DNA of 64,000 bases from positions 25,931,126-25,995,125 of the forward strand of contig OX387195.1 in NCBI GenBank assembly GCA_947561395.2. The letters are read 5' to 3'. Position 1 is the stretch's first letter; each line of letters starts with the position of its first letter. The notes beneath the pieces were generated by a model. That model was not told where the DNA came from. It saw only the letters and a program-made list of their open reading frames with translations, and did no database searches. Positions 5,519-32,865 of this stretch are shown here, piece by piece. This DNA is from Buxus sempervirens. Its lineage: Eukaryota; Streptophyta; Magnoliopsida; Buxales; Buxaceae. Position numbers and translations under genes: made by a program.

Positions 5519-5648
5519 ATGTAAGCTGGGCGTCCTCAATCAAGCCCGTCCAACTTCGTTCTTTCTTTCTTCGTAAGGACCAACAAACAGCCTTTTCAGA
5601 GAGTCTCGCAGTACTACACGTTCGGAGTTTTTCGGGAGGAAGAACGCC

Positions 5649-8600
5649 ATGGCGGTTGGAGGTATCGCAGCTCCGGGGAGTGGCGGAGTTGAGTTTGAGG
5701 CTCGGATTACGCCGGTCGTCATCATTTCCTGCATAATGGCTGCCGCGGGAGGCCTCACGTTCGGTTATGACATTGGAGTTTCCGGTGAGTTTCTTCAGAT
5801 CTTGAACTTCGAATCCTTCTCTCTTTTGTAAAAACAGAGTTAAAAAATGAATTGGTTGAATTGAAATCTCTATTGAGCTGTTACATATATTTATACAAGA
5901 AAGAATTCTCTAGAATTAGGAAACTATCCCTACAATTAAGCTATATAATTAAGCTATACAAAAAAAACGTTTCCTTAATAAACGGTAATGTTACGTTCCC
6001 ATAGTAGTGGACGTTTCCTTAATCAAAAGTAACGTTCCCATAGCACTTAATTAAAGACGTTTCATTCCTTAACACTGCCCCTCAAGTTGGAGAGTGAATG
6101 TCAAGAACTCCCAACTTGACTAAGATTACTGAGAACATATCCTTTCCCAAAGGCTTTGTGAATATATCAGCTAGTTGACTTGATGAAATTACAAACTTGG
6201 TAGTGATCTAGCCATCTTGGATTTTATCTCTAACAAAGTGACAATCCATCTCTATGTGTCGAGTCCTCTCATAGAATACGGGATTTGCAGCTATGTGTAG
6301 GGATGCTTGATTATCACAATAAAGCAACGCGGCATTGGCTTGGGTGACTTGTAAATCATGTAACAAAATTTTTAACCAAGAGATCTCACAACAAGTTCCC
6401 GCCATAGTTCGATATTCGGCTTCTGCCGAAGATAATGAGACTGTTTTCTGTCGTTTGGTTCTCCAAGAGATTAGGGACTTGCCCAAGAACACACAGTATC
6501 CTATAGTTGATCTTCTAGTGGTTAGGCATCCTCCCCAATCTGCACAGTAGGCCTGTAGTTTCAATTCATTCTCTGCAAGGAAAAATAATCCTTGTCCCGG
6601 AGCAAGTTTGAGGTATCGTAAGATCCTGTGTGCAGCATCCATATGGGGCTTGCATGGCTCATGAATGAATCGGCTTAACACTTGTACAACATAAGTGATG
6701 TCAGGCCTCGTGATAGTGAGATAGATTAAACGGCCCACTAACCTTCTGTATTGAGATGGGTTCTTGAGAAGTTCACCGGAATCAGAAAGTTTGAGGTTTT
6801 GTTCCATGGGAAAAGTGACAGGTTTCACCCCTAATGAACCGCAAGGTCTTTTATCCGAAACTTGGTATGTAAGAAACGCTTGAGGGATTCAATGGCCTTA
6901 TCATCATTGCCTGTGATCAAAATATCGTCCACATAAATCAATAGGGCTGTAAATGATTTTCCTCTTTTGTGGGTGAAGAGGGAGTAATCAACTTTGGATT
7001 GAACAAAACCAACGGCTTGTATGGCTTCAGTAAACTTTGCAAACCACTGTCAAGATGCTTGTTTGAGGCCATACAATGATTTGTTAAGGTGACATACCAA
7101 ATTCTCCCCCTGTCGCTGAAGACCAGGAGGAAGAGACATGTAGATTTCTTCATGGAGATCCCCATGAAGAAACGCATTATGTACATCAAGCTGATTAAGG
7201 GTCCAATGACGTGCAGCGGCAATAGCAAGAAGACAACAAACCGTAAGCATCTTGGCAGTGGGGGAAAAAGTGTTGTGGTAGTCGATGCCTTCAGTTTGAG
7301 TGTAGCCTTTAGCTACAAGGCGAGCTTTGTAACACTCGATGGTCCCGTCGGAATGACGTTTAATCTTATATACCCACTTGCAACCAATGGGGTCTTTGCC
7401 GGGAGGAAGAGATGTGACAGTCCAAGTGTCATTGGATTGTAAGGCAGTTAGCTGAGCCATCATGGCGTTTTGCCAATTAGGATCCCTAGCGGCATCTGAA
7501 AAAGTGGTAGGTTCCACATCCCTACTAATGTTGGAAAGAAAGGAAAAATGTGACGGTGAGCAACGTTTGTAAGAAATAAAATTACAAAGGGGATAACGTG
7601 TACCTTTGGTGTGATCGGACAGCGAAGACGACGAGCGATTGGTAATGGGCATGGTTACTTGAGAGCAGACGAAGTCTTTGAGAAGAATAGAAAGAGTCTT
7701 GTGACGCTGAGAGTGACGAAGCGGGGGTGCAAGGGACTCGATGGGAGGTGAAGGTGCAAGCATAGAAGGAGAGTGTGCATTGGGAGACATGTGGTGAGAT
7801 GAAGGAGAAAGGGTTGGGTCAAGAAATGGGGTGGGTGTTGGATCGTTGGTGGGTGGATTGGATGAGGAAAAAACGGTATCATCAGTGGATGGGATAGGTA
7901 ATACGGGGCCGGTTGGGTGAGAGCTGTAGTCGGGTGTCGAAGAGGGTTGTTGAAAGGGAAAGATGGTTTCATGAAAAGTTACATCTCGAGAAGTAAAAAT
8001 TTTGTGACTGTCAAGGTCATACAGTTTGTAAGCCTTTTGGCCGTTGGGGTAGCCCAAAAAAATACATTTGCGAGCTCGGGGATCGAACTTGGTGGATGGT
8101 TGGACTGAGGTGGCAAAGGTAAGACAACCAAATACTCTTATGTGAGAGTAAGAGGGTAACTTGGAGTATAATTTTTCAAAAGGAGTTTTGTTGGAAAGAA
8201 CTTTAGTTGGAAAACGGTTAATGAGATAGACCGCGGTAAGGACGCATTCACCCCAAAACCGAAGTGGGAGGTGAGCTTGAAATCTCAAAGCATGAGCGGT
8301 ATCAAGAATGTGGCGATGCATTCGTTCTACAACACCATTTTGTTGTGGTGTGTAGACGCAAGCGTGTTGGTAAACTATCCCATTTTCTCAAAAAAAAGGT
8401 TTCATGGATTCAAACTCTTTTCCATTATCCACACGTATTTGTTGCACCCTCTTATTGAATTGTGTTTGGATATAAGTAAAAAAGGTTTTGAGATGATTCT
8501 GGGTTTCATGTTTGTGATGCGTAAAAAAAACCCAAGTATACCGAGTAAAATCGTCAACCACAGTTAAGAAATAACGGGCCCCAGTAAGAGATGGGATTTT

Positions 8601-11600
8601 ATAGGGTCCCCAAATATCAATGTGAAGGAGACAAAAAGGTGTAGTGGTGGATATAGAACTCGTACCAAAAGGTAATCTAGTTTGTTTGGCTAAAGGACAA
8701 ACCTCACAAATATTATTCAAACAAGGAGTAAAGTCTGACAAAGTTTTGGATAAAAAAAATAACCTAGATGAGGATAAGTGACCAAGACGTTGATGCCAAG
8801 TATTGGAGGAAACGGCACAACAGGTTGGTCCAGTACGAGAAGCAGGTTTGTCTAGTGCCACAAGATAATAAAGGCCGCCTCGTTGTTTACCCAAACCAAT
8901 CGTCGTCTTCGTATCCAGATCTTGCAAAAGGCACCAAGAGGGAAAAAAAGTTACAGAACAATTTAAGCCCCGTGTAATTTTACTTACAGACAAAAGATCA
9001 ACTTTAAACGTTGGTACACACAAGACATTTTTCAAATGAAGGTTTGAATGTAATGATAAATTTCCAACAGAAGTAATGGGAGCCTTGTCTCCACTAGGCA
9101 ATAAAATCGGGGGAAGAGATGGTGCAACAGTATTGGGTGTCATTGCTTGAGAAGAAGATGTAATGTGATCCGTTGCTCCACTGTCAATGATCCATTGATG
9201 CTTAAGTCCAAGAGGAGTCAACAAACCTATAGGAAGAGCAGCAGTATTGGCTTGTGAAGTTTCCAATTCAATTTCCTTCTCATTCATGACAGAAAATATT
9301 TGCTGATATTGATCTGGTGATAGGTTGGGCATGGCATTCTGCAGTTCCTGGATAGAAGATACTGTTTGAACGTTGTTGACTGATGATGGGTTCCATTTTC
9401 TGGTATTACCCCCATGCGGTTTATTGGGTTTATGAAGCCGATGTCCTTCCGGGAAACCATTGAGTTTATAACACCTCTCTTTGGTGTGGAAATCTCGATC
9501 ACAATAGCTGCAGTGAAGAGGTTTGCGCAACATCTTAGATGACGTGCGTTGGTGGTGTTGAACGGCCATAGCTGCAATATCAATAGTTCCTCGTGAAGCA
9601 CTTAGTTCATGTTGCTTCTCTTCTTGACAAATCCAAGAATAAGCCTTGCGAAGGTTCGGCAAGGGTTACATGAGAAGAATCTGTCCACGTGCAGCTCCAT
9701 AGGATTCGTTCAAGCCCATGAGAAATTGCATCAATGCATTCCTCTCGTCGCGCTCCGAATGTTTCTTCATAGCACCACATGAACAAGATGGCAAATCATT
9801 ATAGGATGCTAACTCATCCCACAGGCGCTTCATTCTTGTGTAATAGGCTGCAACAGACATCGTTTCTTGGCTAAGGGAAGAGTTGTCACGTTGTAGCTGA
9901 AAAATCCATGGTGCGTTGCTCTGAGAAAAACGTTCCTGAAGGTCCTGCCATGCCTCATAGGCTGTCGATGAATAAATAATACTATCAGCGATTGCCGGCT
10001 CAATAGAGTTAAGAATCCATGAAAGGATCATGTCATTGCAACGCTGCCATAGGGAATGCTCATCTGGTTGTGCACTGGCAGAAGGAGCTTTGATAAAACC
10101 ATCGACAAAACCTAACTTGTTCTTCGCGCTAAGAGAGATCCGCATCGAACGATACCAAGTTGCATAGTTGTCTCCATTAAGAGGCTTGGAAACAAGGACC
10201 ATTCCAGGATGATCCGAATGGTGAATAAAAAAAGGATTAGAAGCATCAATGGAGTTGTCTTTGCTGATATTTTCAGACGAAGTTTCTCCACTGTTACTCA
10301 TGGTGAGGAAAAAAAATTTTGCAGAAAAAAAAAATGACCAAGGATGAAAGATTCAACCTTGCTTTGATACCATGTAAAAACAGAGTTAAAAAATGAATTG
10401 GTTGAATTGAAATCTCTATTGAGCTGTTACATATATTTATCCAAGAAAGAATTCTCTAGAATTAGGAAACTATCCCTACAATTAAGCTATACAAAAAAAC
10501 GTTTCCTTAATAAACGGCAACGTTCCCATAATAGTGGACGTTTCCTTAATCAAAGGTAACATTCCCATAGCACTTAATTAAAGACGTTTCATTCCTTTAA
10601 CATTTCTTTCTTCTTGTTTTGTTTTTGCTCTCTTAGTAGAACTCTATGAGAAATGCTTTTGAAATTTCATCTTCAGAGGATATTTAAACGTTACCTGACT
10701 TTCTGTTGCGTTAATTCATACGTTAAAACCTTATCAACAGCGCCGATCACTTTTAGATACGAAGTTATTTTCTATTTCTGGGTCCTAATTTGTGTGTTTA
10801 TCCTTATTTTGAAACCAGTCATTTTTTTATTTTCGGACAAAACAAATTTGCCGTTCGAATCAGCGGAAAAGATTTTTGTAAGGACTAATGAGCATGAAAA
10901 CCAGAATCTAAAGAAGAATTCTTGAAATATCTTTAATAGATGCATAAAGGAAAAAACAAGAACAAGAAAAGATTTGGATGAGGAACTATTTCTTTGAGAA
11001 AAAGGGAAAATTAAAACTTAATTGTTGACCTGAACAAAGAAATGAGAGATAAGAAAGGCATAAAAAGAGGTTTCTGGATCATAAATGAAAAGGAAAATAA
11101 ATTAATGATGTGGATTAATTTCTTCCTTATGGATAAAGTCAGAAACCTAAGCCGGAAGACCAGGGTTCGTTTTTTTTTTTTTTTTTTTGGATCAAAAAAT
11201 ACCGAAACACCATTATTGTTTTCCTAGACCGGACCGGCGGGTCGAGCCGCCACCGGATTTTGTTCAAACTGCTGGTTCTGTTCTTTTTATTGCTCTTACA
11301 TCCTGTTGTTAATTAACTTAATTTTGTTACAGGGGGTGTTACATCAATGCCTCAATTCTTGCAGAAATTCTTCCCCGTTGTCTACAAAAGGACCCAGTCG
11401 ATTAACAGCAATTATTGCAAATACGATAATCATGGGCTACAGTTATTCACCTCATCTTTATACTTAGCTGGATTGACCGCGACCTTCGCTGCGTCTTACA
11501 CAACCAGAAGGCTTGGTCGGAGGCTCACTATGCTTATTGCTGGTATTTTCTTCATAATTGGAGTTATACTCAATGCGGCAGCCCAAGAGCTTGCGATGCT

Positions 11601-14600
11601 TATTATGGGAAGGATCTTATCAGGTTGTGGAGTGGGTTTCGCTAATCAGGTTCGATTTTTCTCCGCTTGTTTAGAATTCAAAGGTGTTATTATTATTAGG
11701 TAATATGATCAAATCAGTTTATATTATCAATAGGGAAAAGTAGGGAAAAGGGCTACCCACAACTAAAATGTAATGGAAGGTGGGGGCCACTTGTGATTGG
11801 ATGAAAGATGATCTAGATTCAATCAAGGAGAGATACTTTCCTCCTTTCTCTCATTATCCACTACTTTTCCTTTTAGTGAGAGGTTTTTTGGTGTGGTGCA
11901 CCATGGGTAGAAGCCTGGTGTGGCGTGGCTTTTTCATGATGTAACAGAACCCACTTGTTTATATTAGACCGAATGTGTCCACACACAGTCGGTCTAATGG
12001 CAGGAATGTCTAGAAAACCTTCTTCATCTTTACTTTAAAGTTTAAGCTGAGGAGGATAGCCAAAATAAGCTTTCATCGCTTGTGTAACCTTTTCATAGGA
12101 TTCTTTTGCGCAGTAGCTTCTATCTTGTTGCCTTTCTATGAGAAAAGTGTTCATTTTATTTCATCTTTGGAATTCGACGTGAACTGTATTTCTCGTCTGG
12201 TTGGCGTGTCCCAAACCTTTTGGCGTTTTATAACTATTCTCAGTTCTTCCTCGTGCCCATCTCGCAAAAAGGGTTTAATAAATTAAAAGAAGTGGTGGGG
12301 TAGGGACAGGACATTTATTTCTATTCCGAGAACAGCCAGACATTTGCGCAAAGGCTTTTCAAACTTCTACTTTGATTACATCGATCTTTTGGTTCTTTTA
12401 TCCTTTTTAATTTGATGCGGGGAACATGATGTGGGTCATTAGAGCTCTGGGTCCCCGAACTTCACATATAATTTATATTTTCCTTCTAGTTGCAGTGATT
12501 GACTTCAATACTGTTTCTACATGCATCGTAGTTTACGCAATAGACCAGATGTACGAGAACACAAATTTGTTGATTTGGATATCTAAATTCTGAACCGTCT
12601 CTTTGCATGTTGAAAACAACAGGCCGTTCCCCTGTTCCTATCGGAGATAGCACCCACAAGAATACGTGGAGGACTTAACATACTATTCTACCTTAATGTC
12701 ACCATCGGCTTCCTCTTCGCCAACCTTATCAATTACGGAACCGCGAAGTAAGCAATTTTTGTCTAAATTGATAAGTTTGTTTATTGTCCTGTCAAAGTTA
12801 TATTCAGTTTTTTTTTTTTTTTGGTAGAAAAAATTATATTCAGTTAACTTGCGAAACTTTTGTCTACATTGTCCTTTCTTTTGTCGTTTTTCCTTTTGTT
12901 CACTACAAAAATGAAGAGAATTAGCGGCAACTTTTAGCGGCGGTAACCTAATTCCCGCCTCTAAAGGCACTATTACCGGCGGTAAAAGCACTTTCCGCCC
13001 CTAAAAATTCTTTCACAATTTTTTTCGCGCGGAAATTTATGGCGCGCATTTTTTTAGCGCGAAATAGCCTTTAGCGGCGGTACTTACCGCCGCTATAGTA
13101 CATTTTACCGGCGGAAACATATCTACCGCCGGTAACAAGTTGGCGGAAAGGTCCCGCCAATAAAAGTGTTATTACCGGCGGTAGCAGTCCGCCGGTAAAA
13201 ATAAAGAATGAAAGCTACCAATAATTGCAATACGATAGTTGTCAGTTTCTGCCTTGACAAATTAGTTAAGGGAGTATTTAGGCTGCAGATGTCAGATAAG
13301 AATTTTCAGGATTAACTTTTATAGAATATAAATAAGACGGATTTGTCATGAAACTAAGAAAGACAAGATAAAAAATGAAAATATTTGAAAATGATTAGGT
13401 ATAGCATACATTAGAGATAAAATTAACGAAAGTAGATTCAGGTGATTTGGTCATACAAAACGGAGACCTAGAGATGCACCTGTTAGAAGATGTGAGAGTA
13501 TGCAGATTGAAGAATCTAAGTAAGAGAGAGACCTCAAAAGATATGGATGGAGTCTATAAGGCAAGATTTATAAAAATATAAATCAACTCAAGACATGAAT
13601 TTTTATAGAGCGGGATAAAAGAACAAGATTTGTGTCACCAACCCCACTTTGGTGGAACTGGCTTATAATGATGACAACAACCATTACAAAATAGTATAGA
13701 TAGCCATTCAAAGCGTTTGCTTTAAATCATGAGGCTATGTTGGTCATTGAAAACATCCAATCTCTGGCTATAGTAATTGATCTTTCTCCTTTGCTTTTCA
13801 TGTCTAAGACTTTGCTCGAGCTTTCTTGAAATCATTCACCCAAATTAATTAGTGCAACAGCAGAGCTGAAAGCCCACAATTATTTTGGATTTTCCTTGAT
13901 TTACTGGATGAAAATGTCTCTTGAAGACCCTGTTGAAGGGGACACTTCATTTCACTTTGTTTCTTCTAATAAAGATGTTTACTACTTTTTTTTTCTTATA
14001 TGTTTTGGTTCTAACGATCATTGTTGGCGTTGCCTTGCAACCACAGAATCAAGGGAGGGTGGGGTTGGAGGTTATCATTGGGATTGGCTGGGATCCCTGC
14101 ACTTCTCCTCACTGTGGGATCCCTCCGGGTAGTAGACACCCCTAACAGCCTCATAGAGCGTGGTCGCTTGGATGAGGGAAAAGCTGTGTTGAGGAAGATA
14201 AGAGGTACTGACAAGATTGAACCCGAGTTCTTGGAGCTTGTTGAGGCAAGTCGTATCGCTAAAGAGGTGAAGCACCCGTTCAGGAACCTGCTCAAGAGGA
14301 GAAACCGGCCCCAAATAATCATTGCAATACTCTTGCAGGTAACTACTATTCACATTGCTTCCATTTGATGGTTTATGGTTCGGATATAGAGAAACAGTGC
14401 CGCTTCTGGCGCACAATGTCTATATCATAGCAGTTGCAGCCAAACCTGTCATGGTTAAGTTAGCAGTAGTGCAAACATAGAGGGCTTACACATCCTCTAC
14501 ATTGTGAGACATTACAGGACCAGAGACCCCTTCCTAGAACTTACACTCCCTCACCATATTGTGCTTCAAGCCTTGTACTATCTGGATAACACTATGTGTC

Positions 14601-15421
14601 TAAAAAAGCCTAAATGTTTTCTCTTTTATGGGTTTGATAACACAATTGAAACTGGCCCTGATAATTCTAATTTGCATTATGTTCTGATGTGCTATTTGGT
14701 GAAACAGATCTTCCAGCAGTCCACTGGCAACAACGCTATCATGTTCTACGCTCCGGTGCTTTTCAACACACTCGGGTTTCGCAGTAATGCATCCCTTTAC
14801 TCAGCCGTGATCACCGGAGCTGTCAATGTCCTCTCCACCATTGTCTCCATCTACTCTGTTGACAAGGTTGGCCGTCGCATGCTCTTACTAGAAGCTGGCA
14901 TCCAGATGTTTTTCTCTCAGGTGGTGATAGGAATACTGTTAGGCATCAAGTTCACCGATTACTCGGAGCTCAGCCGTGGTTACGCAATCCTGGTAGTGCT
15001 AATGGTGTGCACGTTCGGCTCTGCATTCGCCTGGTCATGGGGTCCATTGGGTTTGCTGATCCCCAGTGAGACCTTCCCCTTGGAGACCCGATCGGCGGGG
15101 CAAAGTGTGACTGTGTGCGTCAACCTGCTCTTCATATTTGTGATCGCGCAAACTTTCCTCTCGATGCTCTGCCACTTCAAGTATGGCATCTTCTTGTTCT
15201 TTTCAGGCTGGGTGTTGATCATGTCTCTTTTTGTATTGTTTCTGCTGCCTGAGACAAAGAACATCCCAATTGAAGAAATGACCGAGAGAGTATGGAAAAA
15301 GCATTGGTTCTGGAAGAGTTACATGGATGATGATGAGCCCAATGGGGGATTAAATGGGATCAATGGAGGCGGAAAGAGGGATGGGAAGATCGATGGCTTT
15401 GATGGTCCTTCTCAGTTGTAG
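5649..15421 (+). CDS. STP-type H+/monosaccharide symporter, copy 1 (STP1)
   Basis: Exons are 5649-5784, 11333-11649, 12623-12747, 14047-14338 and 14708-15421, all with GT-AG borders and consistent phase, giving 527 codons (family about 500-530). It is a 12-TM major facilitator sugar porter of the plant plasma-membrane STP family, importing hexoses with protons. Visible family signatures are [11 protein letters not shown] in TM1 (Asp41), NYCKYDN in the lid, GRR loops, PETRSAGQS, and a [11 protein letters not shown] tail. Oddities: the conserved QQLTGIN is QQSTGNN (293-299), the TM5 Gln is Tyr174, and the sugar-contacting Trp of GPLGWL is Leu406. These positions are near invariant in the family and normal in copy 2. 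Intron 1 holds a copia element antisense to the gene. The ORF is intact, but transport activity is doubtful. Confidence 0.9.
5827..6074 (-). repeat. Copia 3' LTR (left on this strand)
   Basis: 248 bp, bounded by TG and CA. Matches 10373-10602 except for a short duplication (ATTAAGCTATATA) and scattered substitutions. Confidence 0.9.
6208..9662 (-). pseudogene. Copia pol remnant (protease, integrase, RT, RNase H)
   Basis: It continues the gag frame. It has a zinc knuckle ([19 protein letters not shown]), protease motif DSGATDH, pre-integrase motif WHQRLGHLS, an integrase core with DIWGP and VDNGKEF, RT with [11 protein letters not shown], the catalytic YVDD at about 6921-6935, and RNase H ending near 6208. 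In-frame TGA codons lie at 8388-8390 and 7050-7052, the second looking like CGA to TGA decay. Near 6845 the sequence jumps from the KDL block to the PVTFPMEQ block with a frame change, an internal deletion. Non-functional. Confidence 0.88.
9666..10301 (-). pseudogene. Copia gag N-terminal region
   Basis: 211 codons resembling plant copia Gag (UBN2/gag-polypeptide type). Seen motifs are the [16 protein letters not shown] start block, [27 protein letters not shown], and [19 protein letters not shown]. An in-frame TAA at 9666-9668 separates it from the zinc knuckle and pol, which continue in the same frame. Normally Gag-Pol would be one polyprotein, so this is a nonsense mutation. Confidence 0.85.
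10373..10602 (-). repeat. Copia 5' LTR (right on this strand)
   Basis: 230 bp, TG to CA on the plus strand, next to the tRNA-Met primer site. The modest LTR divergence suggests insertion well after the STP duplication. Confidence 0.9.
10603..11332 (+). other. STP1 intron 1, right part
   Basis: AT-rich intron ending in a normal acceptor (GTTACAG). It aligns with STP2 intron 1 at about 25280-25369 and 27332-27956. No gene is seen; the short ORFs here are not conserved between the two copies. Confidence 0.6.
12901..13203 (+). mobile_element. CACTA-like fragment in STP1 intron 3
   Basis: Starts CACTACAAAAA, the typical CACTA terminus, followed by dense subterminal motifs in both orientations (TTAGCGGCGG, ACCGGCGGTA, CCGCCGGTAA). 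It is absent from the same place in STP2 intron 3, so it is an insertion after the duplication. The expected opposite terminus (TTTTTGTAGTG) is not seen; the piece is one-ended. Confidence 0.55.
13265..13680 (+). mobile_element. LINE 3'-end remnant in STP1 intron 3
   Basis: Degraded frames resemble the C-terminal part of plant LINE ORF2: an RWFGH-like block, then RRP and APVRRCE-like codons near 13435-13490, and a terminal ACCCCACTTTGGTGGAACTG followed by GATGATGAC-like repeats. The same remnant is at 30700-31110 in STP2, so it predates the duplication. Confidence 0.5.
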
Positions 15422-19399: not shown

Positions 19400-19623
19400 A
19401 TCAAGTTAAAACACTCTGACCTGGATTAATAAACGATAAACCGATATCAAGATAAAATACCCCCGCTAGGCTGGCTAATTACCCTCTAAAGCCGTTCGTT
19501 GACCGACTAGCCGTCAAGAACATCGCCACCTGTTGCTTTCCACGTGGACGGATCCATGTGGTCCCGATCAATCTCGGGATCGTGGCTCGATCGTCTTATG
19601 CTTCTTACTCCGAGTTTTGTTTC
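19400..19623 (+). promoter_or_regulatory. Displaced STP2 upstream region with G-box
   Basis: Matches the STP1 promoter up to TTTGTTTC, including the G-box CCACGTGG at 19540-19547. The TATA box and about 80 bp of leader found in STP1 are missing. The next STP2 sequence resumes at 25058, so this region is now 5.5 kb from the STP2 start codon. Confidence 0.75.
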
Positions 19624-19928
19624 GAACTACGGACTATACAGCCTCTATCTACAGGCTTTTATGGAGGATTCACAGGATGCTGTCACGTTAACAAAAACAT
19701 TTGCAGCCTCAAACGACATCTATTTCCTCAATCCGTTAACGGGCAAATAAAGTTTCCGTCAGCCCATTGGAGGGAAATGAAAATCTTGATTTCCCTCTAT
19801 CCATCTTTTTCTCTCTTTATCTCTCTCTATGCGAAGAACCACATTTTCTCTCTGTTGTTAATGTGCTGAAGGAGAAGGAGAGGGAAGAGAGGGAGAGAAG
19901 ACAGAAATTTGCGGGCTGTTTGTTGAAA

Positions 19929-20143
19929 CACGGTTGTTGAAAGATGGCTGGCCTGAATATTACGATGAAAAGCTGGGTAGATACATTGGGAAGCAGGCTC
20001 ATAAATACCAGACATGGTCAATTGCTGGTTACCTGGTTTCAAAGATGATGCTTGAAGATCCATCTCATTTGGGTATGGTGTCCCTGGAGGAAGACAAACA
20101 GATGAAGCCCCTTATGAAAAGATCTGCTTCATGGACATGTTGA
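19929..20143 (+). pseudogene. Captured 3' end of a neutral/alkaline invertase gene
   Basis: About 70 codons read [20 protein letters not shown], then [20 protein letters not shown], then EEDKQMKPL, ending SASWTC and TGA. This is the C-terminus of plant neutral/alkaline invertases (GH100), which split sucrose into glucose and fructose. The catalytic (alpha/alpha)6 barrel is absent; the sequence starts at a probable exon border. The following 400 bp looks like its captured 3' UTR. It is a fragment on the same strand as STP2, not a functional gene. Confidence 0.85.
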
Positions 20144-22074
20144 CAACCTAATCGTTTTCTTGTAGCCTGTATCCATCTGTATGTCCATGTTTCAGCCTGC
20201 GAGAGAGGAGAGATGTAGCTGAAATGGGTTCATGCCTTTCTTGTCTAGCTCGGGGACAGAAATCTGCAGCTTAGAGTGATACCTTGTGAGCTCCCTCTCT
20301 TTCTTTACATCTATTTGAATGTTTCAATTGATGTGTCTGTTAAGTATCTCTGCAATTCTTTACATCTCCCCCTGTTCCTCTCAACCCATAAGATCATCTT
20401 TTCAGTTAAACTCATAATATGGTATATATTGGGGCGGCTTGCAATTGATGTGTCTGTTAAATTCTAGCCGTTTGTGATGATGATAATTTTCTCTTTCTTT
20501 ACATCTATTTGAATCCGTTTGTGATGATGATAATTTTCTCTTTCTTTACATCTATTTGAATGCTGGTGCAGAATGGAACCTGAAAGCTTTATTTCAATTA
20601 TATTGTGTAGGTTGGCCTTTTGATTGAGTGTTTTTTTTAATAAGTGTTGAGAAAATTTTGCATTATGTTTGGGGGTTGAATTTAATTTTCAGTGCCATCT
20701 TGCTGCCTCTTATTTTTATTTTTATTTTATCTTGCTACCTCAAGAACCTAAGGGGGGAGCAACATTTACTGAATGTTTTTGTTTCTATGAAGCTATAGAG
20801 ACCTCATGTCTGCCTCTTGCAACTCCACAATAATTTTCTTTTTGTGCATAATTAAATATGAAGAAGTCATGGTTTGAATTCTGAAAGATGTGTGCCCTTC
20901 CACCATCAAACCCAATGAAAGACTGACTGTATGCCTGCACTTTGGTGGCAAAGATGGGGTTGTTACTTGTTTGTAGTTGGGTGCAGACGAGGTTGAACCC
21001 AAGTTTTACAAATGGCCTCGTGAGACTTCATGCTAGAAGAAAGGCACTTTCCTTTTTCTAGCCCTCAATTATTTCATCTTTAGAAAGTTGATTGTATGAA
21101 CAAATATAAAATTTTTGTAGATATCTAATTTTAAGCACATAATGGTAATAATAATTCAACTCGTGTTAGGGCAAAAATGAAATTTAATGATCTCATGCTT
21201 ATGCAAATCAATTTAATTCCAGCTACCTGTGCGCACATCTTGTGGTGAATCTACCAGACATTTTTCCTATCTGTCTACCATGTCTAAGGAGCATACCAAG
21301 GATTCAATACCTTGAGAATCATCTCACTCCTAGGATTCTCATTTTGTCAAGGCTCCAAACCTCATCTTGTCTTTGATGTGCTTGACCACAGATACTTATC
21401 CTTAGGGATGTTGGAACTTTGCATTTTGCACTCAACTGCCTAACAAAATTGAGGCATATATAGTTCAAGATGCCTCAGTTTCAGCCCACTCTTTTTCTAG
21501 AAGAGAAAGTCGGACAGGGATATTCTTTCAATTTCATCAAGCCAAAGAATCCCATCTTGGTTTTCTGTGACTTGCATTGTCTTATGAGCCACTTGACTGT
21601 GTTTAGGCTTGGATTATAGTGACCAATATTTAATTCTATATGTGCCTCGCATGTTTTTGTTACATATTTCAATATGGTTAGATTTATGGATGTCATTAGA
21701 CTGCATATCAGTAGCAAGATTTTCCCTTCTAATTACCCGAGAGCCAGTTCATTCCAGATTTCCTTCTTCTGTTTACTTGTCATTTTGATGCTGCCATATA
21801 AAGAAAAATGATCAAGCCTTGCATGTGGCTACCTGATTCCATGGTATGGCAGCAAATATCAACTGATGTAGCCAATTATGGAGCCATTCTAGATCTGGTT
21901 CCCTTAAAGCAACTGTGAATCAATCATTTCCTTTTATTGTTTGTTTGTTTTTTCTTTTATATTCACAAATTTTAAATAGCAACCTTAACATATGGGACTA
22001 TATTGCAAGATGTAATTGATGGGGATCTATGCTAGCAGTTCCCCACTCTCCCGCTAGATTTTCAGAGGAAGATT

Positions 22075-22430
22075 GCTGATGAACTGGATAGGACTCCAGG
22101 GGAGATACTGAAGAAACTTGAAGATATTAGAAATAAGATTATTTAAGAAAGGTTTTGCGTAAACTCTTCAGACAGAGAGCAGATCATGCCAATCCATGGA
22201 TACCTTTGGGGCACAATTTTCTTCAGCAAATGATGCTGCAATTTGGGAAGTATCAATGTCTTATCGTTCCAGTTACTACCAGATCTGTTTGGATAAAGCC
22301 TCGTCTTTGGATTGCATTGGAATTGTGACCCCTGTAGGTGTAATGTTTTTAGCATTCATACTAAGAAGGCAAGAAATTTTCAAGAATCCATTTGAAGTCT
22401 CCATCTCTTGGGTTGTACTAGTCTAACTCT
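22075..22430 (+). other. Unrecognised coding-like stretch inside the Pack-MULE-like element
   Basis: At 22075-22145 the frame KIADELDRTPGEILKKLEDI is followed by a stop. Near 22190-22360 another open stretch occurs. I do not recognise either; they could be captured exons of a third gene. Confidence 0.25.
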
Positions 22431-22945
22431 TCCTATTAATCAAAATGCAGGCTTCTTGTAAATTAGTGCTGCCTTTTTTTTTCCTCATGAAATTTTGCAC
22501 CTTTCGGTTTTTTAAGGGAGCAACCTAAATTGGTTTATGGTTTCACTTCCGAAAGGAGTTTCATTGTTTTGCCCGTGTTTCTAAGACTTGCAGTCTCTGT
22601 TAATGGTGAAGAAACTGATGGAAACTTGTCAGCGCATATAAACGAGGCTGCAATTAACTCAAATCACTTCTTTTTATACACAACATTCCTATAAACAAGG
22701 CTGCCAATACAATACTCCTTGCATACAAAATCTGTGCTCTTGATATCTTCTTTGATGGTACAATTACCGTTCAATACAATGGTTGCCAGTGGAAGCAGGC
22801 AAAAATAGTTGCCAGTGTTCAATGTGGAAAAGTATCCAAAAAACAAAATAACATCACGTAATGAAACAGGATCTCTAACCTACAAATGAAATATGTAACG
22901 AGAGAGAAGGCATGCTCTTCACACCATACAGAGTTGATCATTTTA

Positions 22946-23893
22946 TTAGAGCCCTTTTCCTTCGTCTTCGTTCAAGATGCATTTCTGGAAATCAGTCACC
23001 ATTAGAGGCAACCCTTCCCTCAGAAAGATCTTTGGCTCCCAGTTCAGCAGCTCCTTTGCTTTGCTGATATCTGGTTTCCTTTTATGTGGATCATCAGCGA
23101 TATTTGACTTGAATTCAATGGTTGCACTAGAATCAATTGTTTCTTTGACAACCTGTGTTCAGGGATTTTGTTATGCCAATTAAATTTTCAAATCAGAAAA
23201 AAAATAAAAATTGCAGATAGGTGAACCTGCACAGAGGTGAAGACAGACCTCTGCAAGCTCTAACATGGTGAACTCCCCTGGATTACCCAGGTTGAAAGGC
23301 CTAATGTGTTCATCTTCCATTAATGGCACAAGTCCATCAACCTGAAATGAGAGATACTGAATCCTCTTTCGTATAACTTTGTAAGTTTCAACAAGGATGT
23401 GATTTCCTCTTATCTTATGACACAAAATGAGCAAAATTTATACAATAAATGGAATCATTAAAATTTGAAAACCAGCATTGTCAAAACTTGGCATTTGGAA
23501 ATCCATCTAAGAAGCCGGTTCCTGGTTTTCCTGGTTGATCATCGAGCCAGTCTGGTTCTGAAAAAATTGGTTAGTTCAGAGCTCTGAACTTGATGATGCC
23601 CTTCAAATACTTTGCTCATAGACACAGCTAGAGATAAAAAGCAAGATATACTATCATGCTTGAGGGTACATATCCATAGACTAAATACCAGACTTGATGC
23701 CCTAAAGAGAAAGATACATATATATGGAAAATGCATGACAAAAAAAGCAACTTAACAGTCTCAAAGAATGAGGTGATACACATATAAAATGATGGAAGGT
23801 GGATAATCTGTAAAATACCAAGTCAGAGACATATTGGAAGCTCCGTGTTTGTTTTCCATCACCATATACAGTCAATGGTTGTTTACCGATGGC
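22946..23893 (-). pseudogene. Captured 3' exons of a UDP-glucuronic acid decarboxylase (UXS) gene
   Basis: Three exons with intact splice borders, read on the minus strand. 23819-23893 gives [19 protein letters not shown]. 23249-23341 gives VDGLVPLMEDEHIRPFNLGN, then PGEFTMLELAE. 22946-23152 gives VVKETIDSSATIEF, then DDPHKRKPDISKAKELL, ending before TAA. Together this is about 125 residues of the C-terminal part of UDP-xylose synthase, which makes UDP-xylose for cell walls. The NAD-binding Rossmann half and catalytic YxxxK are absent, so this is a captured fragment. The frame is undamaged, suggesting recent capture. Confidence 0.88.
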
Positions 23894-24892
23894 CTGCAAA
23901 AACAACAGTAAAGCAGTTACAAGATTATCTCCATAACAGAATTTGAAAAATATCATGAGTTACTTCCCATTTTCTGTTTAAATTGATTTTCAGGACAGTT
24001 TTCGAGAGTTACTTCCCATTTACTGTTTAAATTATTTTTATGTTAAGTTGTCTCATGCATGCAAATATATGTTATAGAACAGGATTTCTCAACAAGAAAA
24101 TCAGAGTATGATAAAAGGAAAAGTGAATGTATAACAGTAGTTAGGGCCAAGAAATCTACATATACCACAAACAAAACAAATAATTTCAAACTTAGTATCC
24201 CAAAGGACCTATACTGTGTTCATATATTTGGAGCTAGTTTTCTATTGTTCCAGAAATAATAAGAAATTTCAACTTCAGTCTGTTTCCACTTGGAAGCGAC
24301 CATGAGAATAGGAATCTTCACTTTGCCATCTAAAATGCTCTTGTGAGTAGCACACTCGCATGACCAACAGAACAACATAATTCACATGTAATGATTCGAT
24401 ACCTAGGATCATAAAGTTACATATTGTCAGGAATCATTCTAGCCATAAGATGGATTGATTTTATTTGTAAAATCAAATGACTAAGATTGTAAAGATAATA
24501 ACAACTGGATAATAAATGAAGAGGTCGGCTCAAACATACTAGAAATGCCTATCCACCTAAAAATCTGTATTCACACTTCAGAAACAGGGAAATAGGGAAA
24601 TAGAAACGAAGATTCATTTAGAAACAGGGAAATAGGGAAACAGCAAGAGAAGCACCGGCTCTTCCTCTTGTTCTGAAACGCCGGTTCTTGGGAACCAAGA
24701 GAAGCAAAACGGAATGCACAGCAAAACGGGATGCACGGTAGAGCAGAATGGAGAAAACAAAGTAAAGTAAAAGGAAAGAAGAAGACAAGCAAGTCCGCAG
24801 TTCGTCCAAAAAATGTTCGTTGTTAGGGATTACGACAGTTTTGCAGCTAAAAATTGAAATTTGAAATGGGACGGGTTCGTTTGGTCAAACAA

Positions 24893-25030
24893 TAAAGCAA
24901 GTGGAAGCATCCTGTGGAAGCATCCCGTCCATCCTGCATAAAGCAAGTGGAAGCATCCTGTGGAAGCATCCCTTCCATCCTACATAAAGCAAGTGGAAGC
25001 ATCCTGTCCATCCTGCATAACAACCTGTGT
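24893..25030 (+). repeat. Minisatellite near the right end of the Pack-MULE-like element
   Basis: About 2.5 copies of a roughly 54-bp unit (AAGCAAGTGGAAGCATCCTG plus GGAAGCATCCC and TCCATCCTGCAT blocks). Subterminal tandem repeats are common in such elements. Confidence 0.65.
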
Positions 25031-25108
25031 AGACAGAGGCTGTATAGTCCGCAATTCAGAGAGTCTTGCAGTACTACACGTCCAGAGTTTTTCAGGAGGA
25101 AGAACGCC

Positions 25109-28100
25109 ATGGCGGTTGGAGGTATCTCAGCTCCGGGGAGTGGCAGAGGTGAGTTTGAGGCTCGGATTACGCCGATCGTCATCATTTCCTGCATAATGGC
25201 TGCCACCGGAGGCCTAATGTTCGGTTACGAAGTCGGAGTTTCCGGTAAGTTTCTTCAGATCTTGAACTTCGAATCCTTCTCTCTCTTTCTTTCTTCTTGT
25301 TTTGTTTTTGTTCTCTTACTAGACCTCTGTGAGAAATGCTTTTGAAATTTCATCTTCAGAGGAGATTTAGGCTGCGTTTGGTAACGCTTTTCGGAAGTAC
25401 TTTTTTGCTTTTGAAAGCAAAAAAATGCTTTTAAAAGCAAAAGTACCGTTTGGTAACACACACGAGAAGCAATTTACTAAAAGCAAAGAAACAATTTTAT
25501 TGCTTTTCATCGGAAGCAACAAAACGTTGCTTCTCAATTTTTTTACAAAATTGCTTTATTGCTTTCAAAACCCCTCGATACCTTATTGCTTTATTCCTAT
25601 ATTAAAGATGATGCCTCCATACTCACTTAAGAAGCAACAACGTATTGTTATTGCTAGAGCTGGCAAAATGCCACCCGACCCGACGGGTCAACCCGATTAT
25701 AAACGGGTTGGGTTGACCCGTTTATTAATTGGGTTGGGTGCATGTTGGGGTTTCCCCAACCCGCCAGTAATCGGGTCAACCTGATTATGACCCGCCAACC
25801 CGACGAGTAACCCAATAAATAAAAAAGATGGCAAAAGTATCATGTTTCGACCCAATTAACCCCAAAACCCGACCCGAACCCGGTACAACCCGATCCAATT
25901 AACCCCCAACCCTATTTTAATAATATTTTTTGAAAAATAAAAAATAAAAATAATGGTGATATTAGATACTTGTTTAGTTATTTGAATGTAATTAAATGAC
26001 TATTTTATGAATCTTTTATAATATTGGACTTATATTTTTGAGTATATTTCTAAGTACAATACATAAATTGTGTACAATACTTTTATGGAAGCAAAAAAGA
26101 AATTTCTATGTTACTGCAATTACCAAACATGCTTTTTTGCTTCTTAGAAGCAAAGCAAAAGTTTACCAAACGCATTTGCTTCAAGAAAAGATCTTTCGAA
26201 AAGCATAAAATTGCTTTTTTGCTTTCTTGCTTTTAGAAGCAAAAAAGCAAAAGCGTTACCAAACGCAGCCTAAGGCTGCGTTTGGTAACGCTTTTCGGAA
26301 GTACTTTTTTGCTTTTGAAAGCAAAAAATTGCTTTTAAAAGTAAAAGTACCGTTTGGTAACGCACATGAGAAGCAATTTACTAAAAGCAAAGAAACAATT
26401 TTATTGCTTTTCACCGGAAGCAACAAAACGTTGCTTCTCAATTTTTTTACAAAATTGTTTTATTGCTTTCAAAACCCCTTGATACCCTATTGCTTTATTC
26501 CTATATTAAAGATGATGCCTCCATACTCACTTAAGAAGCAACAACGTATTGTTATTGCTAGAGCCGGCAAAATGCCACCCGACCCGACGGGTCAACCCGA
26601 TTATAAACGGGTTGGGTTGACCCGTTTATTAATTGGGTTGGCCAGTAATCGAGTCAACCCAATTATGACCCGCCAACCCGACAAGTAACCCGATTTTTTT
26701 ATAATAAAAAAAAAAGATGGCAAAAGTATCATGTTTCGACCCGATTAACCCCAAAACCCAACCTGAACCCGGTACAACCGGATCCAATTAACCCCCCAAC
26801 CCTATTTTAATAATATTTTTTGAAAAATAACAATACTCGGGTCAACCCGATTATGACCCGCCCAATAGGTAACTCGATTAAAAAAAAGATGGCAAAAGTA
26901 TCATGTTTCAACCCGATTAACCCAAAAACCCGACTCGAACCCGATACAACCAGATCCAATTAACCCCCCAACCCTATTTTAATAATATTTTTTGAAAAAT
27001 AAAAATTAATAATAATAATAAACGGGTTGGCGGGTTGAACCTGTTTATTGGCGGGTTGGGTTTGGGTTAGGGGTTTTCCAACCCGCCTTAATTTAGTCCA
27101 ACCCGATTAACCCCAACCCGATTATTTGAATGTAATTAAATGACTATTTTATGAATCTTTTATAATATTGGACTTATATTTTTGAGTATATTTCTAAGTA
27201 CAATACATAAATTGTGTACAATACTTTTATGAAAGCAAAAAACAATTTCTATGTTACTGCAATTACTAAACACGCTTTTTTGCTTTCTTGCTTTTAGAAG
27301 CAAAAAAGCAAAAGCGTTACCAAACGCAGCCTTAAACGTTACCTGATTTTCTGTTGCGTTAATTTATACGTTAAAACCTTATCAACAGCGCCGGTCACTT
27401 TCAGATAAGACGATATTTTCTGTTTCTGGTTCCTAATTTGTGTGTTTATCCTTATTTTGAAACCAGTCATTTTTTTCTTTTCGGACAAAACAAATTTGCC
27501 GTTTGAATCAGCGGAAAAGATTTTTGTAAGGACTAATGAGCATGAAAACCAGAATCTAAAGAAGAATTCTTGAAATATCTTTATTAGATGCATAAATTTG
27601 GATGAGGAACTATTTCTTTGAGAAAAAAGGAAAATTAAAACTTAATTGTTGACCTGAACAAAGAAACGAGAGATAAGAAAGGCATAAAAAGAGGTTTCTG
27701 GATAATAAATGAAAAGGAAAATAAATTAATGATGTGGATTAATTTCTTCCTTGTGGATAACGTCAGAAACCTAAGCCGGAAGACCAGGGTTCGTTCTTTT
27801 ATTTTTTTTTGGGGATCAAAAAATACTGAAACACCATTATTGTTTTCCTAGATCGGACCGGCGGGTCGAGCCGCCACCGGATTTTGTTCAAACCGCTGGT
27901 TCTGTTATTTTTATTGCTCTTACATCCTGTTGTTAATTAACTTAATTTTGTTACAGGGGGTGTAACACAAATGACTCAATTCTTGAAGAAATTCTTCCCC
28001 GTTGTCTACAGTCATTACAGAAGAATGGGCCGGTATGAGAGCAATTATTGCAAATACGATAATCAGGGGCTACAGTTATTCACCTCATCTTTATACTTAG

Positions 28101-31100
28101 CTGGATTGACCGCGACCTTCGCTGCGTCTTACACAACCAGAAAGCTTGGTCGGAGGCTTACTATGCATATTGCTGGTATTTTCTTCATAATTGGAGTTAT
28201 ACTCAATGCGGCAGCCCAAGATCTTGCGATGCTTATTATTGGAAGGATCTTACTAGGTTGTGGAGTGGGTTTCGCTAATCAGGTTCGATTTTTCTCCGCT
28301 TGTTTAGAATTCCAAGGTGTTATTATTATTAGGTAATATGATCAAACCAGTTTAAAATGTCGGTTAAAATAGTTGGGATAGCCTTGTCTGTGATGATGCT
28401 ATCTGCTCCTGGACCAAGTCCATGTGTGTGACCGAAGCAATGATTTCACACTTGTTTATATTATTTTCCTCCTTTTTCTCATTATCCAGAGTTCACTTCC
28501 TATGGTACTGGTAGAAGCCTGGTGTGGCGTGTCTTTTTCATGATTTAACAAAACCCACTTGTTTATATACGGTACTGGAACCTATCATGGCAGGAATGTC
28601 TAGAAAACCCTTTTCATCTTTACTTTAAAGTTTAAGCTGGGGAGGAGATAGCCAAAATAAGCTTTCATCGCTTGTGTAATCTATACGTTCATAGGATTCT
28701 ATTGTGCAGCATCTTCTGCCTGGCCTTTCTATAAGAAAAGTGTTCACTTTATTTCATTTTTGGAATTCAACATGAACTATATTTCTCGGCTCGTTGGCGT
28801 GTCCCCAACCTTTTGGCGTTTTATAACTATTCTAGTTGCAGTGATTGACTTCAATACTGTTTCTACATGCATCGTAGTTCACACTATAGACCAGTTGTAC
28901 GAGAAGACAAATTTGTTGATTTGGATATCTAAATTCCCCATATTGAACCGTCTCTTTGCATGTTGAAAACAACAGGCCGTTCCCCTGTTCCTATCGGAGA
29001 TAGCACCCACAAGAATACGTGGAGGACTTAACATACTATTCCAACTTAATGTCACCATCGGCATCCTCTTCGCCAACGTTGTCAATTACGGAACCTCGAA
29101 GTAAGCAATTTTTGTCTACATTGATATTTTGTTTATTGTCCTGTCAAAATTATATTCAGTTAACTTGCGAAACTTTTGTCTACATTGTCCTTTCTTTGTC
29201 ATTTTTCCTTTGTTTTTTTTCTGAAAAACAGGGTTTTGACTCTAACAACACCTAGAGGGGGGTGAATAGGTGTAGCACAGCGGAATAAAATTTTTCTATC
29301 AATTAAAGACAAGTCCTTAATTAATAGGCATGAACAAATCCTTAAGGTAATTCCAGAAAATCAAATAACTAATCAAAAGCAATTAACAAGCCACCCAAAT
29401 TGCAAGCAAATAATTAAAGCATGTAAAGTAAGACAAAACAAGCAATTTGGTGACGAAGGGAAAACTCTATGAGAACTCTCACTAGAGAAAAACCCTCCTG
29501 GCTATGCAGGAGCCACCTAAAAGATCCAATATGAAAAGAAGACTTACAACCTGTAGTTCAGACGACTCAACATCCCTATGCTAGACTCTGCAACTCACAG
29601 ACTTGAAAGTATCTGAGGAACTCCTCAGATTTGCTCCACAGCAACACTTCAGAACTCTAAAGATCTCTTCACACGATCACCCAAACGAACTCGCCTGGTA
29701 TCCGTAGGAACTCCCACGAACAAACTCTCCAACCCGGAACTCCAAGGTAGAAAAGAAAGATGAAGAAAGGCTTTGATGGCTCAACAAAGGAGAAGAAAGA
29801 GGAGAAATAACTCTTGCTCTCACACACGAATTTAGGGTTTCTAAAAACCTCTTCAGTTGCCCTAACAATAGTCTAGACACTCCTTATATAGATTAGGAGA
29901 AGGTAGAATCGGAATAGGAAACAAATCAAAAAAGATCGGAATTCTAAAACTGAAGTTTGTTAATGAACGTTCGAACGCTCAGCAAACGCGGCTCGAACGT
30001 TCAAGACAAAAACTCACTTTTCCTCTTCTCGTTCGAACGGTCAGAGAACGTGAGGCGAACGCTGCTCTCGGGTTTCTCTGAGTGACATCAGCGGTCGAAC
30101 GTTCAGCGAACGTTCAGCCCACGCTGCTCTCGGGTTTCTCTGTGTGTCACCAACGGTCGAACGTTCAGAGAACGTTGGTCGAACGCTAGTCTCTATTTTC
30201 TCTTTGTAGCATGATCGTTCGAACAGCCAGTGAACGTTGATCAAACATTGGGCATAACTTCTTCAATTTGACCCCAATGTTGACGCCGTTTGAACCATAT
30301 CTTCTTGGACTCAAACTAATCATTCTAAACACACTTAAAACACTTTCTCTTTGACACTGAATAAAGCCAAACTAAAATGTTAAACCTAACATTTTCAATT
30401 TCATGTGTCCCACGTTTTTGGAGAAAAAAAAGAATGAATGAAAGCTACCAATAATTGCAACATGATGATTGTCAGTTTCTGCCTTGACAAATTAGTTTTT
30501 AATCCCACATGTAGGGTAGAGCATGGTGTGTATGAGAAACAACATAGATCGGATTCGATTTTAACCTGACTAGTGGACGGCACATGAATATTGCACCTGA
30601 GTGTACATGTGTTGTACTACTGGATTTTGTATCAGGATGTATTTTGGAGTAAGTTACGTGTTCAACTAATTAGAGATAGAAATCAATATGGAAAAAAAGT
30701 TAAGGGAGTATTTAGGCAGCAGATGTCAGTTAAGAATTTTCAGGATTAATCTTTATAGAATAAAATAAGATGGATTTGTCGCAAAACTAAGAAAGACAAA
30801 ATAAAAAATGAAAACATTTGAAAGTTGTTAGGCATAGTACACATTAGAGATAAAATTGAGAAAAGTAGATTAAGGTGGTTTGGTCATACAAAATAGAGAC
30901 CTAGAGATACACCTGTTAGAAGGTGTGAGAGTATGAAGATTGAAGAGTCTAAATAAGAGGGAGACCTAAAAAAATATGGATGGAGTCTATAAAGCAAGAT
31001 TTACAAAAATATAAATCAACTCAAGATATGAATTTTTATAGAGCGGGATGAAAGGACAAGATCTGTGCTACCAACCTCACTTTGGTGGGAACTAGCTTAT

Positions 31101-32865
31101 GATGATGAAGACGACCTTTACAAAATAGCATAGATGGCCATTCAAAGCTTTTGCTTTAGATCATGAGGCTATGCTCATCATTGAAAACATCCAATCTCTG
31201 GCTATAGGAACCGATCTTTGTCCTTTGCTTTTCATGTCTAAGACTTTGCTCGAGCTTTCTTCGAATGATTCACCCAAATTAATTAATTAGTGCAACAGCA
31301 GAGCTGAAAGCCCACAATTATTTGGATGTTTCCTTGATTTACTGGATGAAAATGTCTCTTGAAGACCCTGTTCAAGGGGACACTTCATTTCTCTTTGTTT
31401 CTTCTAATAAAGATGTTTACTTCTTCTTTTTTTCTTATATGTTTTGGTTCTAAAGATCATTGTTGGCGCGTTGCCTTGCAACCACAGAATCAAGGGAGGG
31501 TGGGGTTGGAGGTTATCATTGGGATTGGCTGGGATCCCTGCACTTCTCCTCACTGTGGGCTCCCTCATGGTAGTGGACACCCCTAACAGCCTCATAGAGC
31601 GTGGTCGCTTGGATGAGGGAAAAGCTGTGTTGAGGAAGATAAGAGGTACTGACAAGATTGAACCCGAGTTCTTGGAGATTGTTGAGGCAAGTCGTATCGC
31701 TAAAGAGGTGAAGCACCCGTTCAGGAACCTGCTAAAGAGGAGAAACCGGCCCCAAATAATCATTGCAATACTCTTGCAGGTAACTACTATTCACATTGCT
31801 TCCATCTAATGGTTTAAGGTTCGGATATAGAGAAACAGTGCAGCTTCTGGTGCACAATGTCTATATCATAGCAGTTGCAGCCAAACCTGTCATGGTTAAG
31901 TTAGCAGTAGTGCAAACATAGAGGGCTTACACATCCTCCACATTGTGAGACATTACAGGACCAGAGACCCCTTCCTAGAACTTACACTCCCTCACCATAT
32001 TGAGCTTCAAGCCTTGTACTATCTGGATAACACTCTGTGTCTAAAAAAGCCTAAATGTTTTCTCTTTTATGGGTTTGATAACACAATTGAAACTGGCCCT
32101 GATAATTATAATTTGCATTATTTTCTGATGTGCTATTTGGTGAAACAGATCTTCCAGCAGTTGACTGGCATCAACGCTATCATGTTCTACGCTCCAGTGC
32201 TTTTCGACACACTCGGGTTTCACAGTGATGCAGCCCTTTACTCAGCCGTGATCACCGGAGCTGTCAATGTCCTCTCCACCATTGTCTCCATCTACTCTGT
32301 TGACAAGGTTGGCCGTCGCATGCTCTTACTAGAAGCTGGCATCCAGATGTTTTTCTCTCAGGTGGTGATAGGAATACTGTTAGGCATCAAGGTCACCGAT
32401 CACTCGGACAACCTCAGCCGTGGTTACGCAATCCTGGTAGTGCTAATGGTTTGCACGTTTGTCTCTGCATTCGCCTGGTCATGGGGGCCATTGGGTTGGC
32501 TGATCCCCAGTGAGACCTTCCCCTTGGAGACCCGATCGGCGGGGCAAAGTGTGACTGTGTGCGTCAACCTGCTCTTCATATTTGTGATCGCGCAAGCTTT
32601 CCTCTCGATGCTCTGCCACTTCAAGTATGGCATCTTCTTGTTCTTTTCAGGCTGGGTGTTGATCATGTCTCTTTTTGTATTGTTTCTGCTGCCTGAGACA
32701 AAGAACATCCCAATTGAAGAAATGACCGAGAGAGTATGGAAAAAGCATTGGTTCTGGAAGAGTTACATGGATGATGATGAACCCCATGGGGGATTAAATG
32801 GGATCAATGGAGGCGGAAAGAGGGATGGAAAGATCGATGGCTTTGATGGTCCTTCTCAGTTGTAG
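25109..32865 (+). CDS. STP-type H+/monosaccharide symporter, copy 2 (STP2)
   Basis: Exons are 25109-25244, 27957-28282, 28976-29100, 31488-31779 and 32149-32865, with GT-AG borders and matching phases, giving 531 codons. It is a close tandem paralogue of STP1. The sugar-site motifs are conventional: Gln177 in TM5 ([11 protein letters not shown]), [15 protein letters not shown] in TM7, and Trp410 in [10 protein letters not shown]. The lid Cys (NYCKYDN) and its partner (MLCHFKYG) are present. The unusual residue is Glu41 in GYEVGVSGG, where the family has Asp, the residue that binds the co-transported proton in STP10. The 5' region is disrupted: a 5.4-kb insertion ends 52 bp before the ATG and the ancestral TATA box is gone. 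Plasma-membrane hexose uptake is the family role; whether this copy is expressed is open. Confidence 0.9.
25370..26270. mobile_element. PIF/Harbinger-like MITE in STP2 intron 1, copy 1
   Basis: 901 bp with terminal inverted repeats GGCTGCGTTTGGTAACGCTT and its inverse. The left flank is TTA and the junction with the next copy is TAA, the 3-bp target typical of PIF/Harbinger. The STP1 intron lacks it. The interior holds an ACCCGACCCG-type block (about 25660-25920) that looks like a separate hAT-type repeat nested inside. Confidence 0.65.
26274..27331. mobile_element. PIF/Harbinger-like MITE in STP2 intron 1, copy 2
   Basis: 1058 bp with the same termini, abutting copy 1 across a TAA and followed by TTA at 27332-27334. 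It is a longer relative of copy 1, with additional repeats of the ACCCG-rich interior. Confidence 0.65.
29222..30397 (-). mobile_element. Probable solo LTR in STP2 intron 3
   Basis: A 1.18-kb insertion relative to STP1 intron 3. It is bounded by TGAAAAACAG and CATTTTCA, with flanks TTTTC and ATTTC (4 of 5 bases match, as for an LTR-element target duplication). It contains ACACCTAGAGGGGGGTGAAT near one end, a 62-bp tandem array, and no coding frame. A solo LTR is the best guess. Confidence 0.4.
29968..30245 (+). repeat. 62-bp tandem array of GTTCGAAC-type palindromes
   Basis: Units start at 29968, 30030, 30092, 30154 and 30216, an exact 62-bp period in every step; the last unit is partial. 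Each unit opens CGTTCGAACG or CGGTCGAACG, followed by TCAGNGAACG. Confidence 0.85.
30700..31110 (+). mobile_element. LINE 3'-end remnant in STP2 intron 3
   Basis: Counterpart of 13265-13680, with the same RWFGHTK-like block and terminal CCTCACTTTGGTGGGAACTA. Heavily decayed. Confidence 0.5.

Follow-up and report, generated by a model that had tools for sequence, protein, structure and literature searches.

The STP2 gene of Buxus sempervirens, which encodes an STP-type sugar transporter, very probably lost its native core promoter through the insertion of a Pack-MULE, i.e., a Mutator-like element (MULE) carrying host gene fragments, combined with a deletion of flanking host DNA, and is likely to be silent or weakly transcribed. 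The gene lies in the stretch analysed here (C22:25931126-25995125 of contig OX387195.1; 64,000 nucleotides, referred to as the window), for which a genome of 676.5 Mb was searched. According to our gene models, two STP genes are arranged in tandem on the forward strand, STP1 (5649..15421; 527 amino acids, core promoter intact) and STP2 (25109..32865; five exons, 531 amino acids, ATG at 25109), each of which has an open frame and introns of the GT-AG type. The top match of the STP2 protein in the PDB was STP6 (9g11; E 5e-197). Upstream of the window lies a third copy of the tandem array, STP0, which has an open frame of 530 codons and retains its native promoter (C22:25921322-25921681), as determined by genome search and alignment; STP0 is closer to STP1 than either is to STP2. 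Additional STP-like exons are present on the reverse strand at 38834-45909.

Interruption of the STP2 upstream region

The intact arrangement is seen in STP1, where a G-box (CACGTG, 5439-5444) and the TATA sequence TATAAAAGG (5510-5518) precede the ATG at 5649; the coordinates 5439 to 5649 agree with the 210 bp that the original prediction had assigned to the interval from G-box to ATG. In STP2, homology to STP1 ends at 19622 (at 19624 with inclusion of two bases, CG, that are part of the element end) and restarts at 25059 (at 25055 with inclusion of an ambiguous TTCA), i.e., 50 to 54 bp before the ATG. The limits proposed earlier from the sequence (19623 and 25058) were thus accurate to 1 to 2 bases. 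To the left of the break, the former upstream promoter region of STP2 (19400..19622, forward strand) is preserved, with 92% identity to STP1 and 91% identity to STP0 over the 400 bp up to 19622, and its G-box (CACGTG, 19541-19546) now lies 5.57 kb from the ATG. To the right, a residual leader of 50 bp remains (25059..25108, forward strand; 92% identity to STP1 and 94% to STP0). A 93-bp segment containing TATAAAAGG, which is located at 5506..5598 (forward strand) in STP1 and is identical in STP0, is gone from STP2: exactly 93 host bases are missing, and 5,436 bp of foreign DNA with inverted ends stand in their place, so that both the 5.4-kb element and the deletion of the TATA segment were borne out. 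When the STP1 promoter (5301-5660) was used as a query against the whole genome, STP1 (100%) and STP0 (99%) were matched at full length, and STP2 was matched as two pieces (query positions 1-185 and 295-360). In this heuristic search, four candidates were scored and all four were matches; no outgroup promoter for the STP copies was found in this genome. Alignment and genome search hence agree that the element lies between STP2 and its former upstream region and occupies the place of the TATA-containing segment.

The possibility that the 93 bp represent a later gain in STP1 was rejected, since STP0 carries the same segment. Given the closer relationship of STP0 to STP1, parsimony alone provides no polarity for gain versus loss; loss of the TATA box and leader at the edges of a transposon would be the simpler reading than a gain of 93 bp. 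An artefact of the assembly is highly improbable. The region is a tandem array, in which assemblers err, but the window is free of any N, both junctions are located within one 33-Mb contig, and other matches in the genome cover just parts of the element, with at most 98% identity over short stretches, which makes it unlikely that a stray copy was joined by error.

The inserted DNA is a non-autonomous Mutator-like element

The inserted DNA (19623..25058) is bounded by the ends CGAACTACGGACTATACAG and TGAATTGCGGACTATACAG. The outer 60 bp of its left terminal inverted repeat (TIR; 19623..19682, forward strand) are 83% identical to the reverse complement of 24998-25057, and the right TIR (24998..25058, reverse strand) is the inverted match to the left end. 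A 21-base end pattern, built from the ends of this element plus those of a second element at 75-3969, matches just four ends in the window, where 0.02 are expected from shuffles. The ends CGAACTACGGACTATACAGCC and (in reverse) TGAATTGCGGACTATACAGCC were found again across the genome: including the window's own, at least 47 matches were obtained with the left query (19624-20100, in part invertase sequence) and at least 40 with the right query (24560-25109, in part STP leader). Some of the matched places were examined as relatives, and 11 of these had both ends readable. One relative (C9:18466159-18484539, 18.4 kb) has the same ends and contains a 781-residue frame with matches to PF10551 (MULE; E 6.9e-27) and PF03101 (FAR1; E 6.7e-18). 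Further two-ended relatives of 18 to 21 kb are located at C4:37377435-37396348, C8:43171254-43189826, and C12:239442-260360; the long frames of the first of these we take, from the starts of the frames, to be similar to those of long interspersed nuclear elements.

For each of the 11 two-ended relatives, the left and right 9-bp flanks were compared with each other, by eye for C6 and L015. All nine bases were identical in six relatives (C9, C4:37377k, C6, L012, L031, and L032), eight in L033 and L015, seven in C8 and L010, and five in C12, i.e., 10 of the 11 match at seven to nine positions. Left out of this count were L009 (rearranged at its right end), an internal pairing of 337 bp in L012, the loci L027, L028, and L016, each with one end only, and L013 and L014, whose ends are the same as those of C12 and C8, respectively. 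The 9-bp duplications and the MULE transposase in the relatives identify the family as Mutator-like and the window copy as non-autonomous, and other transposon superfamilies were rejected on the same grounds. No frame of transposase length was present among the open reading frames listed for 19623-25058. A Pfam scan (E of 0.001 or better) that covered 5 of the 72 listed frames yielded only GH100 invertase and an epimerase piece below its curated cut-off, and the frame at 22163-22426 received no Pfam name.

Captured host sequences

The element contains pieces of host genes whose parents lie elsewhere in the genome, as in the Pack-MULE class. A 3′-terminal piece of an alkaline/neutral invertase gene (GH100; 19920..20258, forward strand; PF12899, E 5e-18) has its parent at C12:40487507-40487845 (96% identity), and a block of 2.8 kb (21190..23965, reverse strand) corresponds to one contiguous stretch at C3:56525363-56528134 (94 to 95%). 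Within this block, three 3′ exons of a UDP-glucuronate decarboxylase (UXS) gene with their introns (22946..23959, reverse strand) were recognized from reading frames and a PDB match; the joined exon pieces match UXS1 structures (4gll; E 7.2e-34), and their NCBIfam matches lay solely far below the cut-offs. Further internal pieces match other loci, 20281-20443 matching C9:45548492-45548652 (95%) and 20568-21187 matching C3:56061106-56061770 (91%), and the portion 20804-21019 also occurs in the autonomous-type C9 relative (95%). Family membership together with the parental copies of the invertase piece and the UXS block agrees with the original description of a gene-capturing DNA transposon, and by its sequence the element at 19623-25058 is classified as a Pack-MULE.

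The invertase piece is present, in whole or in part, in the related copies L009 and L010 and was therefore probably captured before the window copy formed. The 2.8-kb block was not found in any other copy of the family in two genome searches, and was probably captured later; other matches inside it, with 73 to 91% identity, look like paralogous loci. The DNA directly upstream of STP2 (23969..25058) is the MULE's own right subterminal region and end. Since 23969-24728, which is 94% identical to the C9 relative, represents MULE subterminal sequence, the DNA adjoining STP2 is transposon and not a captured promoter.

Probable insertion with flanking deletion

The window copy lacks the target-site duplication (TSD) of 9 to 11 bp that is expected of MULEs: its left flank GTTTTGTTT (19614..19622, forward strand), which is host sequence, and its right flank GAGAGTCTT (25059-25067) match at 3 of 9 bases. 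An ordinary insertion would place identical 9-bp sequences at both ends. A decayed TSD was rejected, because each flank corresponds to a host site of its own in STP1 and STP0; in both genes these sites are 93 bp apart. The missing TSD together with flanks derived from two host sites at this distance makes an insertion with flanking deletion likely. The absence of the 93 bases, the missing TSD, and the coincidence of the edges with the element ends are direct observations.

The following course of events would account for the locus. The STP genes may first have multiplied in tandem, whereupon a Pack-MULE that already carried the invertase fragment, and that had gained the 2.8-kb block from the UXS locus in its own lineage, would have inserted in the region where STP2 transcription starts. 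Simultaneously or shortly afterwards, a deletion proceeding outward from one element end would have removed the new target-site copy and the 93 host bases, which contain the TATA box and the larger part of the leader. According to PMC2774946, maize Mu prefers to insert at transcription starts or a short distance above them; a single sentence there mentions Mu adjacent deletions.

The right junction bears on the direction of the deletion. Read from outside in, the first base of the right end is a T; C is found in 27 of the 28 other end rows of the family (25 of 26 distinct ends), and the sole non-C row, L028, has G. With an insertion at 19622 and a rightward deletion, the element end and host TTCAGAGAG would share three bases (TTC) where they meet, such that the odd T would be a host base and no mutation would have to be assumed. 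An insertion at 25059, the mirror case, would have a 2-base overlap (CG) and would require a mutation of the right end. The right junction is read most simply as TTC-overlap joining to host TTCAGAGAG; the mirror case is possible. Two related elements inserted 93 bp apart and later recombined into one with mismatched flanks would yield the same anatomy, with no TSD, edges at the element ends, and missing host bases, but this requires two insertions and a recombination as opposed to one insertion and one deletion, and we consider it quite unlikely.

Predicted consequences for STP2 expression

With the TATA-containing 93 bp gone, STP2 is without its native core promoter and would most likely be silent or weakly transcribed. 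The original claim that it must use transposon sequence as promoter or be silent appears plausible, and any expression would most likely arise from transcripts that begin in the MULE right end and run outward. No exact TATAWAW motif was present on the forward strand at 24300-25108, the 809 bp above the STP2 ATG, and STP1 has one; TATA-like sites in the MULE right end occurred only as one-mismatch matches. Copy-specific changes (nonsynonymous to synonymous) numbered 36:13 in STP2 (ratio of approximately 0.86), a count that includes the time before the insertion and, without an outgroup, is indistinguishable from changes on the STP0/STP1 ancestor; they numbered 19:5 in STP1 (approximately 1.18) and 10:6 in STP0 (approximately 0.52). 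One-sided binomial tests revealed no significant departure from neutral proportions (p of 0.37 for STP2, 0.70 for STP1, and 0.16 for STP0), and purifying selection on STP2 is not detectable.

Several points weigh against a flanking deletion that left STP2 silent or weak. Many promoters have no TATA box, so its absence is no proof of silence. The gene has an open frame and canonical splice sites over its five exons; since in a simple simulation the probability of an open frame after 49 random substitutions was 0.15, the open frame is weak evidence of residual function. The changes are distributed as 28:6 (nonsynonymous to synonymous) in exons 1 to 3 and 8:7 in exons 4 and 5, the latter counts hinting at constraint or gene conversion. 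The C12 relative matches at just 5 of 9 flank bases, so that the window copy is not the only one with a lost or decayed TSD. Finally, we infer the order and the mechanism of the insertion and the adjacent deletion.

Active expression of STP2 from an outward promoter in the MULE right end, with a new expression pattern, is possible, although clearly the lesser prospect. Its open frame and canonical splice sites would be in accordance with such expression, and Pack-MULEs possibly contribute to the 5′ untranslated regions (UTRs) of host genes, according to the accessible part of PMC8277862. It is opposed by the lack of an exact TATA motif over the 809 bp that precede the ATG, by the lack of detectable purifying selection, and by promoters in MULE ends being described, in the accessible part of PMC3310237, as serving internal genes or regions. 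Somewhat less likely still is the more specific scenario in which a single transposition swapped in the MULE end as the working core promoter of STP2, placing a transporter with Glu at the Asp42 position (see below) under new control. We doubt that transcription starts at the old G-box, with splicing that removes the element as an intron of the 5′ UTR, or from a TATA-less start in the 50-bp leader: the G-box region is retained at 91 to 92% identity and the final 50 bp of the leader remain, but the former would need a 5.4-kb intron holding captured gene ends, and STP2 no longer has the TATA box or the larger part of its leader.

Transporter residues and relation to known systems

Alignment and motif comparison revealed differences between the copies at positions defined in STP10. 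STP0 retains Asp, Gln, and Trp at positions 42, 177, and 410. STP1 has Tyr at the Gln177 position (exon 3) and Leu at the Trp410 position (exon 5), and Asn replaces Ile just before Asn301. STP2 retains the residues at both of these sugar-touching positions, 177 and 410, and carries, in exon 1, Glu at the position of Asp42, a proton-site residue. The accessible part of the STP10 paper reports that exchange of Asp42 for Ala abolishes transport and makes no mention of Glu at this position. The three copies represent a natural experiment within one plant: STP0 keeps both its promoter and the checked transport residues, STP1 keeps its promoter with two sugar-contact positions changed, and STP2 keeps these two positions with its core promoter lost to a transposon. 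They could reveal whether a MULE end replaces a plant core promoter outright.

The STP2 locus is a clear, fairly ordinary case of a known process, its informative points being the missing TSD and the intact sister copy. Like the Pack-MULEs of rice, maize, tomato, and Arabidopsis, the element has MULE ends around host gene fragments with parents elsewhere and with introns kept, and related copies share one of its fragments. It differs from them in lacking a TSD and in its largest captured block, which at 2.8 kb is long compared with the 305 bp that PMC8277862 quotes for Pack-MULEs next to a 224-bp median for the Pack-TIRs of animals. The case that we take to be that of hcf106 is similar in that a Mutator-type element adjoins a gene and its end may drive that gene; at STP2 the host core promoter is missing too. 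The adjacent deletions of maize Mu, as we understand the cases mentioned in the accessible part of PMC2774946, likewise involve loss of host DNA right beside an element end, whereas the STP2 deletion is deduced from paralogues and was not seen happening. OsMULE/JSS, also a MULE-like region upstream of a gene, spans approximately 2.7 kb at 0.4 kb upstream of rice PsbS1, and japonica has it while most indica cultivars lack it; unlike at STP2, a possible 9-bp TSD (CTTTTCCAG) was reported for it, and a lost core promoter is not mentioned in the accessible part of that report (PMC4178011).

Other mobile sequences in the window

The second element at 75-3969 is different from the Pack-MULE and has 460-bp inverted repeats of 95% identity; 17 bp close to its ends are similar to the ends of the Pack-MULE. 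The second element resides in a gene copy that we presume to encode a phytocyanin, and by eye its flanks TCTGTTTCC and ACCCCGACC show no 9-bp duplication. Paired matches to its end occur elsewhere, e.g., at C3:16347873-16352381. Relative to the copy at 36616-37453, approximately 685 bp are gone at the site of this element, and the missing stretch of approximately 690 bp (36682-37372) recurs inverted at C22:25930238-25930903 (89%), just upstream of the gene copy hit by the element; it may be a mobile piece or an inversion.

Intron 1 of STP1 contains a long terminal repeat (LTR) retrotransposon (5827-10602; LTRs at 5827-6074 and 10373-10602, 90% identity), presumably copia-like by its frames. 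In intron 1 of STP2, nested repeats starting with GGCTGCGTTTGGTAACGC (25369-27332) are absent from STP1 and STP0; by eye they have TTA flanks, and we take them to be miniature inverted-repeat transposable elements of the PIF/Harbinger type.

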